DNA of 64,000 nucleotides from Clostridiales bacterium (GTDB taxonomy: Bacteria > Bacillota > Clostridia > Christensenellales > Aristaeellaceae), in the NCBI GenBank assembly GCA_012729115.1, contig JAAYDR010000045.1, forward strand, positions 1 to 64,000. Direction: 5' to 3'. Numbering within the stretch: the stretch's first letter is position 1; every line of letters begins with the position of its first letter. Both the position numbers and the translations under genes were made by a program. The notes under the pieces were generated by a model that searched no databases, was not told the origin of the DNA, and saw only the letters and a program-made list of their open reading frames with translations. Shown here piece after piece: positions 26,122 through 43,095 of this stretch.

Positions 26122-26421
26122 ATGTTCCATCATATCGTAATGTACTGGCTTAAGGACAGGAAGAACAGCGCCCTGTTGCAGGAAACCATCGATAAGCTCC
26201 AATCCATGGAGGGCAAGATTCCCGGACTTCTCAGTGTAAAAGCGCGCAAAGACGAGGCGGGGGATGCCCGCAGCTGTGATCTGTGTCTGATCACCGTACT
26301 GGAAAACCGGAATGCCTTTGAGGCCTATAAGACTCACCCCGTCCATCTGCCCGTGAAGGAGCATATGCACCGGGTGGTGGAGCGTAGCGCCAGCGTCGAT
26401 TTTGAGGAGCCTCAGGGATGA
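26122..26421 (+). CDS. Dabb domain (stress-responsive alpha/beta barrel) protein
   Basis: 99 residues with the start MFHHIVMYWLKD and the ending HPVHLPVKEHMHRVVERSAS typical of dimeric alpha/beta barrel (Dabb) proteins. These are small cytoplasmic dimeric ferredoxin-like folds, mostly of unknown function in bacteria. It lies 25 bases after the ATPase gene and overlaps the next gene by 4 bases, so it is probably in that operon. Confidence 0.88.
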   Translation: MFHHIVMYWLKDRKNSALLQETIDKLQSMEGKIPGLLSVKARKDEAGDARSCDLCLITVLENRNAFEAYKTHPVHLPVKEHMHRVVERSASVDFEEPQG

Positions 26422-26744
26422 GCGCTCAGGAGGGAAAGCAGGAGGCCCAGGGCAGGATGTGGATCCGCCTGATGAAGGCGCACAAATGCCTGCGGGATGT
26501 GGTGCTGGAATGCCGGCGGGATGACCCTCGAAATGCGCTGCGTCAAGCCCTGCCCCAGATGGATATCAGCCAGCCTCTCTGGCTCCCGCGTCATCAGGCG
26601 GATTGGGAGCAGTATTCCTTCACCCGTTTTTTACCGGAGCATTTCATGGACAGCGTTTCCTTTGACAGGATGGAGATCAGCTACATTTTTCCGGAGGAGG
26701 AGTCAAGACCCTCACGGAAAAGGAATCCTCTGGAGGATGCCTGA
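26418..26744 (+). CDS. small hypothetical protein
   Basis: 108 residues, coupled to the Dabb gene by an ATGA overlap and with GGAG-type sequence upstream. Basic and charged, no TM or signal segment. The phrases MKAHKCLRDVVLECRRDD and MDISQPLWLPRHQADWEQYS are followed by TRFLPEHFMDSVSFDRMEIS. This looks like a small conserved Firmicute protein rather than a random frame, because its spacing and codon use match the neighbours. I cannot name a function. It is the last gene before the terminator at 26821. Confidence 0.7.
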   Translation: MSAQEGKQEAQGRMWIRLMKAHKCLRDVVLECRRDDPRNALRQALPQMDISQPLWLPRHQADWEQYSFTRFLPEHFMDSVSFDRMEISYIFPEEESRPSRKRNPLEDA

Positions 26745-26820
26745 GATTCCCGGTGGATCGGCTTGACCGAAGGATGTCAAAAAAGTGAAAAAAAAGTCGA
26801 CAAAATGTAAGATTTCCACA

Positions 26821-26850
26821 CGGGCGGCAGGGTTGTCGCCCGTTGTTTTT
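26821..26850 (+). terminator. terminator after the ATPase-Dabb operon
   Basis: CGGGCG (26821-26826) and CGCCCG (26837-26842) with a 10-base loop, followed by TTGTTTTT. The T-run overlaps the -35 box of the next promoter. Confidence 0.75.
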
Positions 26851-26870
26851 CTACATCTGTATGTTATAAT
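26843..26870 (+). promoter_or_regulatory. promoter of the EPSP-synthase-like gene
   Basis: TTGTTT (26843-26848), 16 bases, TATAAT (26865-26870) with an extended TG element (TGTTATAAT). Start expected near 26877, about 42 bases before the ATG. Confidence 0.65.
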
Positions 26871-26918
26871 TTGTTATATACACAATATCTTGTGGTATCT
26901 TGTGAGGAGGACATGCCC

Positions 26919-28253
26919 ATGACCTGCCGAATCCTTGAGCCTGCCCGTTTGCATGGCAGCGTTCAGGCTCCTCCCGCCATAGGCGAAGCCCTCCGGGCCC
27001 TTTTGCTGGCCTCCTTGGGAAGGGGGCCTTGCCGTTTCCATGGATTGAATCCGCCTCTTGTCGGAAAACTGCGGGAGGTAACCGGCATCCTGGAGGCTCT
27101 GGGATCAGGGATGTCCTGGGAGGGAGATGTGCTGCAGGTGGAGCCTGTTCCTTCAGGCACGTGGGTCTCGCAGCAAGTTCCCTGCCACGTTTGTGTTGAT
27201 ACGGAGGCATTGCTGCTGATGGTTCCTGTTCTATGGGCACAGGGGCGCAGGGCTGTGCTCAGGTTGAGAGACGAGCCGGAAGCCTTCTTGTTGAAGGGGC
27301 TCCAAGACCTGTCCAGGCAGGCCGGCACTGTGATCGCACGGGTGGAGGCATCCCAGGGGCAGTCCGCCACAATCGAAGTGCAGGGTAAGCTGACTTCGGG
27401 ATCTTATGAGATGGACGGCTCCCTGCCCGGTATGCTGATCTCGGGTATGCTGATCGCCCTTTCCCACGCTGCGGATCAGCAGGGGCAGGATATCCCCTCC
27501 AGGCTTACCGTCACCGGGTCCCTGGCCTGCCGCGCCCAGGTGGACAGGACGCTGGAGTGGATGAAGCGTTTTGGGAGATGCTATCAGGAGGAAGGGTCAG
27601 GTGTGTTCCTCTTGGAGTGTGCCCAGGGCCCGTACCCGGAGGATGTTTGTATTCCGGGGGATTGGTCCAAGGGAGCGGCGCTGCTTTGCGCCAATGCACT
27701 GGGCAGCGGGGTGGTGGTGGAAAACCTTCGGGAGAGCGGAGAGATGTCCGCCTTCCGGGGAGAGGCCCGGATTTTGGATATGCTGCGACAAATGGGTCTG
27801 CTGGTTTTTGAGAGTTGGGAGAATCTTTATGTAACAAGCCCTTCCAGGGCGCGGCTCTTGCCCCTGAATGCCGATTGCCGGGACATGGTGGATCTCGTGC
27901 CTGTGCTGGCGCTGCTGTGTACCCAGGCCTGCGGGGAATCTACCCTGTGGGGGATGCGGGATTCTGGACATAAGAACAGGAAGCTGCTGGAGGCCACGGT
28001 GCAATTCCTGACCCGGATGGAGGCTCAGGCACAGCTGTCCGATCAGGGGGATGCCCTGATCCTGCAGGGTCCCATCCGGTTGTGTGGGGGGGTTCAGGCA
28101 GAGGTGGGCGGGGACTCCAGGATGGCCATGTTGCTGGCATTGGCGGCTTTGATAGCCCAGGAACCCATCACCGTTTCCGGGATGGAGATCCTGGAGGAAT
28201 TCTGGCCAGGATTCCTGGAAGATTATCAGGCCTTGGGGGGAAGGGTGTCCTAA
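26919..28253 (+). CDS. EPSP-synthase-fold protein with degenerate active site
   Basis: 444 residues, the length of 3-phosphoshikimate 1-carboxyvinyltransferase (AroA). The start is ATG 26919, with AGGAGG 8 bases upstream; ATG 26913 is too close. The fold is recognisable from RALLLASLG, DGSLPGMLISGMLIAL, MVDLVPVLALLC, SRMAMLLALAALIA and GMEILEEFWPGFLEDYQALG. However, most catalytic positions differ from E. coli AroA. The Lys22-Ser23 pair reads I-G, NAGT reads DTEA, the Ser-Ser-Gln site reads Pro-Gly-Met, Glu341 of KETDR is missing, and Lys411 is Glu. Asp313 and Arg386 equivalents remain. It is probably not a working EPSP synthase. The next gene, rlmD, follows 21 bases later. Role unknown. Confidence 0.78.
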   Translation: MTCRILEPARLHGSVQAPPAIGEALRALLLASLGRGPCRFHGLNPPLVGKLREVTGILEALGSGMSWEGDVLQVEPVPSGTWVSQQVPCHVCVDTEALLLMVPVLWAQGRRAVLRLRDEPEAFLLKGLQDLSRQAGTVIARVEASQGQSATIEVQGKLTSGSYEMDGSLPGMLISGMLIALSHAADQQGQDIPSRLTVTGSLACRAQVDRTLEWMKRFGRCYQEEGSGVFLLECAQGPYPEDVCIPGDWSKGAALLCANALGSGVVVENLRESGEMSAFRGEARILDMLRQMGLLVFESWENLYVTSPSRARLLPLNADCRDMVDLVPVLALLCTQACGESTLWGMRDSGHKNRKLLEATVQFLTRMEAQAQLSDQGDALILQGPIRLCGGVQAEVGGDSRMAMLLALAALIAQEPITVSGMEILEEFWPGFLEDYQALGGRVS

Positions 28254-28274
28254 GGGACCCCCAGAAGGAGAAAG

Positions 28275-29642
28275 ATGATTCAAAAGAACCAAACCATAGC
28301 GCTGACCTGCGCCCGCTTGGGGGCGGAGTTGGAGGGCATTTGCCGGCACGAGGGACAGACGGTTTTTGTGGAGGGAGCGCTGCCCGGGGAGAAGATCTCG
28401 GCCAGGGTCCTCAAGGTTGCGCCCCGCTATGCCTTTGCCCAGATGTTGTCCCTGGAGAACCCTTCAAAGGACCGTCGGGAGCCGTTTTGTCCCGTGTATG
28501 ACCAGTGCGGGGGATGCAGCGGTCAGCACATGTGTTATGATGCCACGCTGGAGGCCAAGTGGCAAAATGTGCTGGATTCCCTGAACAGGGTGGGCGGGCT
28601 TGGCTTGACCGAGGAGCAGGTGCCCCCTGTGCTGGGAGCCGGGGCCCCCCTTCGTGGCCGCAACAAGACCTCTCTGCCGGTGGGCGGAACCATCGACGAA
28701 CCGGTATTGGGATTCTATCGCAAGCGGAGCCATCGCCTGGTGTCCATTGAGGATTGCCCGGTGGCCATGGCCGGGGTCAGCCGGGTGATTCAGGTGGTAA
28801 AGGAATGGATGCGCCAAAGCCGGGTATGGCCTTATGACGAAGAGACCCACCAGGGGACGCTGCGCCATGTGGTGGTGCGGACAACCCGCAAGGGAGAGAT
28901 GATGGTGCTGTTGGTGGCTGCTGCGGCAACGCTGCCGGACATCCCCCTTTTGGTTTCCCAACTCACCGGCCGGGTGAAAGGGTTTTGCGGGCTTCACCTG
29001 AGCGTCAACACCGCACACAACAATGTGATTTTGGGGGACAACTGCCATAAGCTCTATGGGGAGGATGCCCTGGTGGAGGAACTGCTGGGGCTGGAGTTTG
29101 AAATATCCCCCCTGTCCTTCTTTCAGGTGAACCCGGCTCAGACGGAGAAACTTTACCAACAGGCCATCGCCTTTGCCGCTCTTTCCCCAGAGGATCTGGT
29201 GGTGGATGCCTACGCCGGAGCGGGCACCATTGCCCTGTGCATGGCCCGGCAGGCGAAAAAGGTAATCGGTATTGAAATCGTTCCCCAGGCTGTGGATAGC
29301 GCCTGGCGTAATGCCCGGCGGAACCATATCGACAACGTGGAATTTTACACCGCCGCCGTGGAGGATAAGCTGCCCGCCCTGGTGGCCAAGGGCCTGCGTC
29401 CGGAGGTGGTGGTGCTGGATCCTCCCCGCAGAGGGGTGGAACCCGCTGTTATCCAAGCGGTACTGAAGGCCGCTCCCCGGAGGGTGGTCTATGTGAGTTG
29501 TCACGTGCCCACCCAGGCAAGGGACATCGCTCTTCTGGTCCAGGGAGGCTACCGTTTTGAGGCCTGCCAGCCCGTAGATATGTTCTGTTACGCCAGCGGC
29601 GTGGAGAATGTGGTCAGTCTTGTCCGGGGGGAAACCTTGTAG
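28275..29642 (+). CDS. rlmD: 23S rRNA (uracil-5-)-methyltransferase, RlmD/TrmA family
   Basis: 455 residues. An N-terminal TRAM RNA-binding domain (about 8-60) leads to an iron-sulfur cluster motif CPVYDQCGGCSGQHMC. Next are a central domain, then SAM site DAYAGAGTIALCMARQAK, IEIVPQAVDSAWRNA, LDPPRRGVE, and catalytic Cys in VVYVSCHVPTQARDIA. Family members methylate U1939 (RlmD) or U747 (RlmCD) of 23S rRNA; Firmicutes often carry a dual enzyme. The usual SCNPAT after the catalytic cysteine reads SCHVPT here, a small deviation. AAGGAG lies 4 bases before the ATG. Confidence 0.92.
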   Translation: MIQKNQTIALTCARLGAELEGICRHEGQTVFVEGALPGEKISARVLKVAPRYAFAQMLSLENPSKDRREPFCPVYDQCGGCSGQHMCYDATLEAKWQNVLDSLNRVGGLGLTEEQVPPVLGAGAPLRGRNKTSLPVGGTIDEPVLGFYRKRSHRLVSIEDCPVAMAGVSRVIQVVKEWMRQSRVWPYDEETHQGTLRHVVVRTTRKGEMMVLLVAAAATLPDIPLLVSQLTGRVKGFCGLHLSVNTAHNNVILGDNCHKLYGEDALVEELLGLEFEISPLSFFQVNPAQTEKLYQQAIAFAALSPEDLVVDAYAGAGTIALCMARQAKKVIGIEIVPQAVDSAWRNARRNHIDNVEFYTAAVEDKLPALVAKGLRPEVVVLDPPRRGVEPAVIQAVLKAAPRRVVYVSCHVPTQARDIALLVQGGYRFEACQPVDMFCYASGVENVVSLVRGETL

Positions 29643-41785: not shown

Positions 41786-41890
41786 ATGACCAAACCTTGG
41801 ATTGATAAGGCTTTCATGATGGAGGGCGGGATGCGCAGCAAGGTGGTGAGACTGTGGCAGACTATCGGATTTTTCACAGCCCGCGTCTAA
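41786..41890 (+). CDS. possible 34-residue leader peptide overlapping murA
   Basis: ATG 41786 has GGGAGGGA about 6-8 bases upstream and encodes a short basic peptide beginning MTKPWIDKAFMMEGGMRSK, ending 37 bases inside murA in another frame. It could be a translational-coupling leader for murA or a chance frame. The remaining part of the 321-base gap 41533-41853 shows only the uvrB promoter. Confidence 0.25.
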   Translation: MTKPWIDKAFMMEGGMRSKVVRLWQTIGFFTARV

Positions 41891-43095
41891 GTGGCGAGGT
41901 GGATGTAAGCACGGCCAAAAACGCGGTGCTGCCCATACTGGCGGCAGGGTTGCTCACTCAGGAGCCGCTGATCGTCAAGGACGTGCCGCGCATCACCGAT
42001 GTGGACATCCTTTTGCAGATTCTGCGGGATTGCGGAGCCCAGGTGGAACGCAGCGGCAGGGATGTGTCCGTGTGTGCCCAGCACCCCGGAAGCCCGGATA
42101 ACGAGACGATGATCCGCAAGCTGCGGGCCAGCGTGCTGGTGCTGGGGCCGATATTGGCCAGAAGCGGCAGTGCCTGTGTCTTCCTGCCGGGGGGCTGCGC
42201 CATTGGCCAGCGGCCCATAGACCTGCATGTGAAGGGTTTGCAGACCATGGGGGCCATGGTTCACGCCAAGGGAGGACAGAGGCAGCTCTCCGGCAAATTG
42301 ATCGGCGACCGGGTGTACCTGGACCTGCCGAGCGTGGGGGCAACGGAAAACCTGATGATGGCCGCTACCCTGGCACGGGGCCAGACCATTTTGGAAAACG
42401 CGGCCAAGGAGCCGGAAATCGTGGATTTGGCGGATTGCCTGAACGCCATGGGCGCCAGGGTGGCGGGAGCAGGCACGGGCACCGTGGTGGTTGACGGCGT
42501 GGAGACGCTCCATGGGGCTGTGCACAAGCCTATTCCGGATCGGATTGAGGCGGGTACTCTGCTTTGCGCGGCAGCCATTACCCAGGGCAGCATCCTCATT
42601 CGCAAAGCCAGGCCGGAACACATGCGAGCAATGATGTTCAAGCTGAAGGAGGCGGGCGTGGGCATCCGGGAGACTCCGGCGGGCATTCGCATCAGCGGTA
42701 CTGCCATTTCGCCCTTTGAAGCCCGCACCTTAGCCTACCCTGGTTTTCCCACGGACATGCAGGCGCCCATGATGGTGGTGGCGCTCAAATGCCATGGAAC
42801 CAGCATTCTGGCAGAAACTGTCTTTGAAAACAGATTTATGCATGCCACGGAACTATGCCGGTTGGGAGCTCATATCCGGATTGAGAATCATTTTGCACTG
42901 ATCGAAGGGGGCCACAGCCTCGTGGGAGCCACGGTGACCAGTACAGACCTGCGGGCTGGGGCGGCCCTGATGCTGGCAGGGCTGATCTGTGAGGGGGAAA
43001 CCATTTTGCAGGATCCCTCCGGACATATTGAGCGAGGGTATCAGGATCTTCCACAGAAATTGCGAAGCCTGGGGGCCAGGATTGAGGAACGCTAG
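41854..43095 (+). CDS. murA: UDP-N-acetylglucosamine 1-carboxyvinyltransferase
   Basis: 413 residues from GTG 41854 (AGGTGGTGA upstream). The enolpyruvyl transferase fold retains its catalytic residues: Lys in VSTAKNAVLPILAAG and the PEP-reactive Cys in FLPGGCAIGQRPIDLH. Asp is in AYPGFPTDMQAPMM, and the Arg site is in ETVFENRFMHATEL with DLRAGAALMLAGL. It catalyses the first committed step of peptidoglycan synthesis. This intact MurA contrasts with the degenerate EPSP-synthase homologue at 26.9 kb. It is followed by a promoter and then the aminotransferase gene. Confidence 0.95.
   Translation: MADYRIFHSPRLSGEVDVSTAKNAVLPILAAGLLTQEPLIVKDVPRITDVDILLQILRDCGAQVERSGRDVSVCAQHPGSPDNETMIRKLRASVLVLGPILARSGSACVFLPGGCAIGQRPIDLHVKGLQTMGAMVHAKGGQRQLSGKLIGDRVYLDLPSVGATENLMMAATLARGQTILENAAKEPEIVDLADCLNAMGARVAGAGTGTVVVDGVETLHGAVHKPIPDRIEAGTLLCAAAITQGSILIRKARPEHMRAMMFKLKEAGVGIRETPAGIRISGTAISPFEARTLAYPGFPTDMQAPMMVVALKCHGTSILAETVFENRFMHATELCRLGAHIRIENHFALIEGGHSLVGATVTSTDLRAGAALMLAGLICEGETILQDPSGHIERGYQDLPQKLRSLGARIEER

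Follow-up and report, generated by a model that had tools for sequence, protein, structure and literature searches.

The closest described relative of the protein reported here is EPSP synthase, the product of aroA. The two share a full-length fold, descent from aroA and the ancestral position of the gene. They differ in that the protein lacks 17 of 21 active-site positions and has no aroC as a neighbour, and in that an intact AroA is encoded elsewhere in the same genome. MurA has the same superfamily fold (Z up to 34.0), but the protein scores 27.2 bits in the murA equivalog profile TIGR01072, under the cut-off of 392.7, and a genuine MurA is encoded at 41854-43095 of the window, the whole stretch of 64,000 nucleotides that was analysed.

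Pseudoenzymes in general keep the fold of an enzyme without its catalytic residues. So does QutA, a fungal activator described as derived from the first AROM domains, EPSPS included. The window protein resembles them in this respect. It differs in being bacterial and free-standing, in having no fused DNA-binding part, and in apparently having arisen after an operon takeover. No bacterial EPSPS pseudoenzyme was found in the literature covered, mainly outside the subscription journals.

The reading favoured here, with a probability of roughly 0.65, is that the gene at 26919-28253 of this uncultured, gut-type bacterium is the lineage's own aroA, which was made redundant and is now a lineage-specific EPSPS pseudoenzyme. 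The features of the locus are as follows.

26122..26421, + strand: Dabb-domain small protein, ancestral upstream neighbour (Pfam PF07876, 66 bits)
26418..26744, + strand: 108-residue open reading frame (o108), second of the small-protein pair (no Pfam match)
26820..26843, + strand: terminator-like hairpin and T run, separating the small-protein pair from the aroA-like gene (consensus scan)
26865..26870, + strand: putative extended -10 element TATG.TATAAT, its TG just upstream of 26865 (consensus only)
26905..26910, + strand: ribosome binding site AGGAGG (exact match, 8 bases before the ATG at 26919)
26919..28253, + strand: EPSP-synthase-fold protein of 444 residues with most catalytic residues lost, read as the retired resident aroA (profile, residue table, tree, model)
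28254..28274, + strand: 21-base gap, site of aroC in relatives (comparison with relatives)
28275..29642, + strand: rlmD-like 23S rRNA (uracil) methyltransferase (Pfam tRNA_U5-meth_tr and TRAM)

The gene lacks the disrupted frame of a pseudogene. Its 444 codons are open, with no stop, frameshift or truncation, and a further ATG at 26913, in the same frame, is an alternative start. The indels private to the protein (two sites with two extra residues each, one site with two fewer) are all in frame. Residues 8-434 of the protein match PF00275 at 106 bits, where the cut-off is 22.8. In the aroA equivalog profile TIGR01356 it reaches 128.7 bits, under the cut-off of 287.25, a threshold that separates weakly, since 15 intact same-genus orthologues score 231-285 and also fall below it. 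An automatic label “aroA” on this gene would mislead.

Five PF00275 genes are present in the genome: the one described here, the MurA at 41854-43095, one each on contigs C10 and C118, and an AroA on contig C19. Most genomes of the genus carry three PF00275 genes besides AroA. Of these, the window copy is the one typed as MurA; a third MurA-type gene would be unusual.

The active site was scored against E. coli K-12 AroA at 21 positions, which are taken as the substrate-contacting or catalytic ones of EPSPS structures. In this alignment the window protein keeps four (R27, D313, K340 and R386) and reads, in order, I, G, R, V, T, E, L, F, P, G, M, C, Q, D, D, K, N, L, S, R, E. The losses include K22, R124, K411, E341, H385 and the S-S-Q loop, which has become P-G-M. 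At R124 one alignment pairs a Phe; in another, R124 and the next Pro fall into an in-frame gap of two residues, so that no Arg is present either way. The orthologues shown carry a net charge of +7 over the 21 positions, and the window protein one of -1.

The earlier note on this DNA had listed most of these changes from the letters alone. Its I-G for K22-S23, P-G-M for S169-S170-Q171, missing KETDR Glu (Asn at E341) and Glu for K411 are all seen in the alignment, as are the persisting equivalents of Asp313 and Arg386, to which K340 and R27 can be added. Its “DTEA for NAGT” is measured against the wrong reference, since this site is ACAAALR in the intact orthologues. A shifted alignment that hides the catalytic residues is rejected: the motifs flanking most of the lost residues align without gaps, and no shifted site was seen to hold them.

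In PMC3411725, Lys22, Arg124 and Lys411 are described as dominating the binding of glyphosate and PEP. All three of these PEP-binding charges are missing from the window protein. Given this, the reversal of charge and the change from S-S-Q to P-G-M, the phosphate-rich substrate pair should not bind, and to judge from its residues the protein most likely no longer makes EPSP. The four residues that are kept may serve as structural salt bridges or meet a changed ligand.

The loss of chemistry is not accompanied by a predicted loss of fold. An AlphaFold2 model of the protein has a pLDDT of 85.9 and a pTM of 0.85, compared with 91.7 and 0.90 for an intact orthologue modelled with the same relatives and without the window protein. 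The top structure matches of the model are EPSP synthases (E 1.3e-29), and superposition on the apo EPSPS 7tm4 gives Z 38.8 and an rmsd of 2.9 over 417 aligned residues, in agreement with the intact fold that had been proposed. One predicted difference concerns the turn with KECDR in the intact model, which is replaced by a single long helix, 347-366, in the window model.

Orthologues of the gene are common among close relatives. In a search of 17 genomes of the same genus, the window's included, all but one of the 16 others have an orthologue, at 37-45% identity; the exception, G009, has an operon-type aroA only. A second genus, that of G029, is represented by six genomes, of which G029, G112, G138 and G195 have orthologues (by contig position, L140, L142 and L138 are the loci of G112, G138 and G195, respectively). 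G159 has an operon-type aroA and no orthologue, and G178, a 66% complete assembly, gave no match.

In all 19 orthologous species the 21 active-site residues are mutually identical, and 17 of the 21 are the same as in E. coli. The window protein is 37-43% identical to orthologues that average 62% with one another, a gap in identity that is not seen for rlmD from these genomes. A tree places the window protein inside the resident aroA clade with a support of 99/100, in a position that long branches leave unsure in detail. Its branch is long, at 3.57 changes per site, where the median end branch measures 0.36. Thus the tree provides descent from an enzyme and the residue table the loss of catalytic residues, two of the features by which a pseudoenzyme is recognised.

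No orthologue sharing the catalytic loss was found in the 17 genomes of the genus, in the six of the G029 genus, or at the 20 loci that a scan of 84,980 species genomes yielded. Candidatus Limiplasma species are represented among these loci, as are other Clostridia, and apparently all are orthologues already counted or the second fragment of one assembly. The scan used two peptide patterns, and the closest relatives of the window genome may be missing from it. One of the patterns, ACAAALRM, is absent from the window gene, and a sister that shares the loss could thus escape the scan. Since all 19 orthologous species found keep the catalytic set, the change is lineage-specific. Of the checks attached to the earlier note, the one for the same residues being lost throughout the orthologues comes out negative; the absence of orthologues, which it held would suggest a decaying copy, is not seen either.

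The working resident AroA of the clade (L036-L051, L138-L157) has a peculiarity of its own. At the site of the E. coli motif NAGTAMRP it has ACAAALRM, with Ala in place of Gly96, a position that PMC3411725 links to glyphosate insensitivity. Because no other AroA was seen in those genus members, native glyphosate tolerance is predicted for them. In another case, L138 and L149, two resident aroA copies 91% identical over their shared part occur in one assembly (JADGQP01); they perhaps reflect mixed strains and not a duplication.

The surroundings of the gene also identify it as the resident copy. In relatives, aroA is followed by aroC at 14 of 16 loci, the exceptions being G011, whose contig ends 438 bases on, and G010, without aroC within the stretch examined. 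At 10 of the 16 loci aroC is in turn followed by rlmD, as it is on other contigs of G011 and G015. The Dabb gene lies upstream of aroA in G029 (57% identical), L138 and L140. A homologue of o108 and the sequence TATGGTATACT both lie upstream of aroA in L041/G029, L138, L140 and L142. Neither Dabb nor o108 was matched at 15 same-genus loci, some of them short. Given the order aroA-aroC-rlmD with Dabb and o108 on the 5' side in relatives, the window apparently shows the ancestral order minus aroC. The gene o108 is kept beside aroA or rlmD across two genera and belongs to no Pfam family.

The neighbours had been described as a small-protein operon and rlmD, not shikimate genes. This is correct for the genes themselves, but the site is the remnant of a shikimate locus from which aroC alone was lost. 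Likewise, rlmD as a constant neighbour holds mostly by way of aroC, and not at every locus. The window rlmD is 63-67% identical to that of relatives (64-67% in the comparison whose genus minimum is 61), and is probably co-transcribed with the aroA-like gene. As for the signals upstream, the terminator-like scan finds no more sites than in shuffled sequence, and the -10 element at 26865 is absent from the list of a promoter scan that demands a -35 hexamer.

A normal aroA elsewhere in the genome, another expectation, does exist. Contig C19 carries a complete and divergent operon, aroF-tyrA-aroB-aroA-aroC-pheA-aroEK-aroQ, whose AroA is catalytically intact and scores 326.8 bits in TIGR01356, above the cut-off. 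The genome's only aroC and only aroB are both found there. Elsewhere in the genus the operon is aroF-tyrA-aroB-pheA-aroEK-aroQ, without aroA or aroC, and the gap between aroB and pheA measures 20-209 bases at 10 genus loci, including one that ends inside pheA. On C19 this gap is 2341 bases and is filled by aroA and aroC. The same is seen in G017, which belongs to another genus, with 2622 bases.

The C19 genes are also unusually distant from those of the genus. Their mean identity to the genus, compared with the minimum within the genus, is 70% against 83 for aroF, 46 against 55 for aroB, 48 against 59 for tyrA, 57 against 59 for pheA, 42 against 55 for aroEK and 62 against 70 for aroQ. The C19 aroC is 50% identical to the copies at the rlmD site, whose own minimum is 60. 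By comparison uvrB has a mean of 82% to the genus, where the minimum is 82; rlmD falls within the genus range and uvrB close to it. The divergence of the operon, with uvrB and rlmD near the genus range, means that the C19 operon either came from outside the genus or is a second copy of old standing. One gene upstream of its aroF has a 54% homologue upstream of aroF in G015, one of 11 loci compared. Such a match would be expected if the operon was replaced in place or is an old one that was kept, so that transfer is unproven.

Misbinning of C19 was considered as well. The tetranucleotide profiles of three C19 pieces correlate with pieces of the genome at 0.62-0.70 on average, compared with 0.53-0.73 for the genome's own pieces and 0.29-0.53 for seven pieces from other genomes. 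This composition is not decisive, but speaks against contamination. With an intact aroA on C19 beside the sole aroC and aroB of the genome, and aroC gone from the rlmD site, the gene at 26919-28253 is best read as the retired resident aroA.

Relatives provide parallels for such a retirement. In G159 (L214, G159:C28, 6392-8057) o108 stands directly before rlmD, aroA and aroC are both absent, and the genome has an operon-type aroA; this is a clean loss of the aroA-aroC pair. In G009 one locus (L174, G009:C93) keeps aroC-rlmD with the resident aroA gone, and a second (L119, G009:C115) has another aroA beside aroQ, aroEK, aroB and a weak pheA match. G009 is a second change of aroA within the genus. 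Since both of these genomes, with an operon-type aroA, lost the old gene, the retained copy in the window stands out.

One explanation is that the window gene is simply on the same path, an early-stage pseudogene that has been redundant and functionless since the C19 takeover and has not yet fixed its first stop or frameshift. The fate of the resident gene in G009 and G159 fits this, as do the redundancy of the gene, the fact that its partner aroC is already deleted and the occurrence of the catalytic loss in no orthologue. This explanation nevertheless seems unlikely, given the pattern of what has changed. Of the 137 columns invariant in the 19 orthologues, the window protein keeps 4 of 21 in the active site and 74 of 116 elsewhere (Fisher p 2e-4). 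The loss is thus focused on the active site, while glycines (18 of 20 columns) and hydrophobic positions (119 of 135) are kept and the private indels respect the frame.

Neutral simulations point in the same direction. When stops were allowed (100 runs per level, three starting genes), sequences at 70% identity had acquired 3-4 stops on average and only 0-3 of 100 runs were stop-free; at 60% identity none of 100 was, for each starting gene. The excess divergence of the window gene corresponds, by a rough estimate, to about 65-70% identity to the start. When stops were forbidden, in 900 runs each taken to the same total loss of invariant columns, an active-site retention of 4/21 or less never occurred, and the observed values were matched in one run for glycines, two for hydrophobic positions and one for the mildness of substitutions. 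The simulations suggest selection on the fold after the loss, for one genome in which part of the structural conservation predates that loss. They argue for a folded protein that may be selected for something other than EPSP synthesis.

A less probable alternative is that the frame is kept open solely for the downstream rlmD, by polarity or translational coupling, and that the protein itself has no role. The start of rlmD 21 bases past the stop is in accord with this, as are the terminator-like site and the promoter element 5' of the aroA-like gene, which make rlmD probably dependent on that transcript. A frame maintained in this way should lose glycines and hydrophobic residues at random, which is what the runs with stops forbidden model; they match the observed values in at most 2 of 900 runs per measure. 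Moreover, the site in G159 is closed cleanly to o108-rlmD, so a long leader gene is unnecessary there.

That R27, D313, K340 and R386 act on a new, probably non-phosphorylated substrate is very improbable, for although exactly those charged residues remain within a two-domain fold predicted to be intact, the other catalytic residues named above and the S-S-Q loop are gone, the site is negative in net charge, the KECDR turn is predicted to be helical, and the state occurs in no relative and hence offers no new motif to compare.

Some observations count against the pseudoenzyme reading too. The four persisting residues are unexpected under pure release from catalysis. The model confidence lies below that of the intact orthologue, and 42 invariant positions outside the active site have changed. 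The catalytic loss is seen in one genome only, with no second species found to have the same dismantled site, so retention across speciation cannot be claimed.

In this pseudoenzyme model, the C19 operon would first have taken over chorismate synthesis, either by transfer into the lineage or as an old second copy that was kept. The takeover would have freed the resident aroA from catalysis. Its product would still be made from the putative ancestral promoter, together with rlmD. The protein would then act, if at all, as a two-domain binding protein or as the partner of another protein, which is the most economical candidate role. Any regulation of the C19 pathway or of RlmD by it is speculative.

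The earlier note had suggested a repurposed binding or regulatory protein. The intact frame, the predicted fold, the lost chemistry, the normal aroA on C19 and the constraint on the fold, which favours a retained protein over a decaying copy, agree with that suggestion, but no orthologue family sharing the loss was found. In its full form, in which a bacterial EPSP synthase was exapted, after a complete aro operon had taken over its step, to bind or regulate without catalysis and is expressed along with RlmD, the proposal can be put forward only tentatively, with the odds somewhat against it.

Pseudoenzymes are usually observed long after their origin. In this case relatives still show the functional orthologues, the operon that did the replacing and the partner gene that was lost, which opens the sequence of events to reconstruction and testing. 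If the exaptation is true, the locus would be a natural example of a central metabolic enzyme turning into a pseudoenzyme, with its ancestors still visible in relatives.
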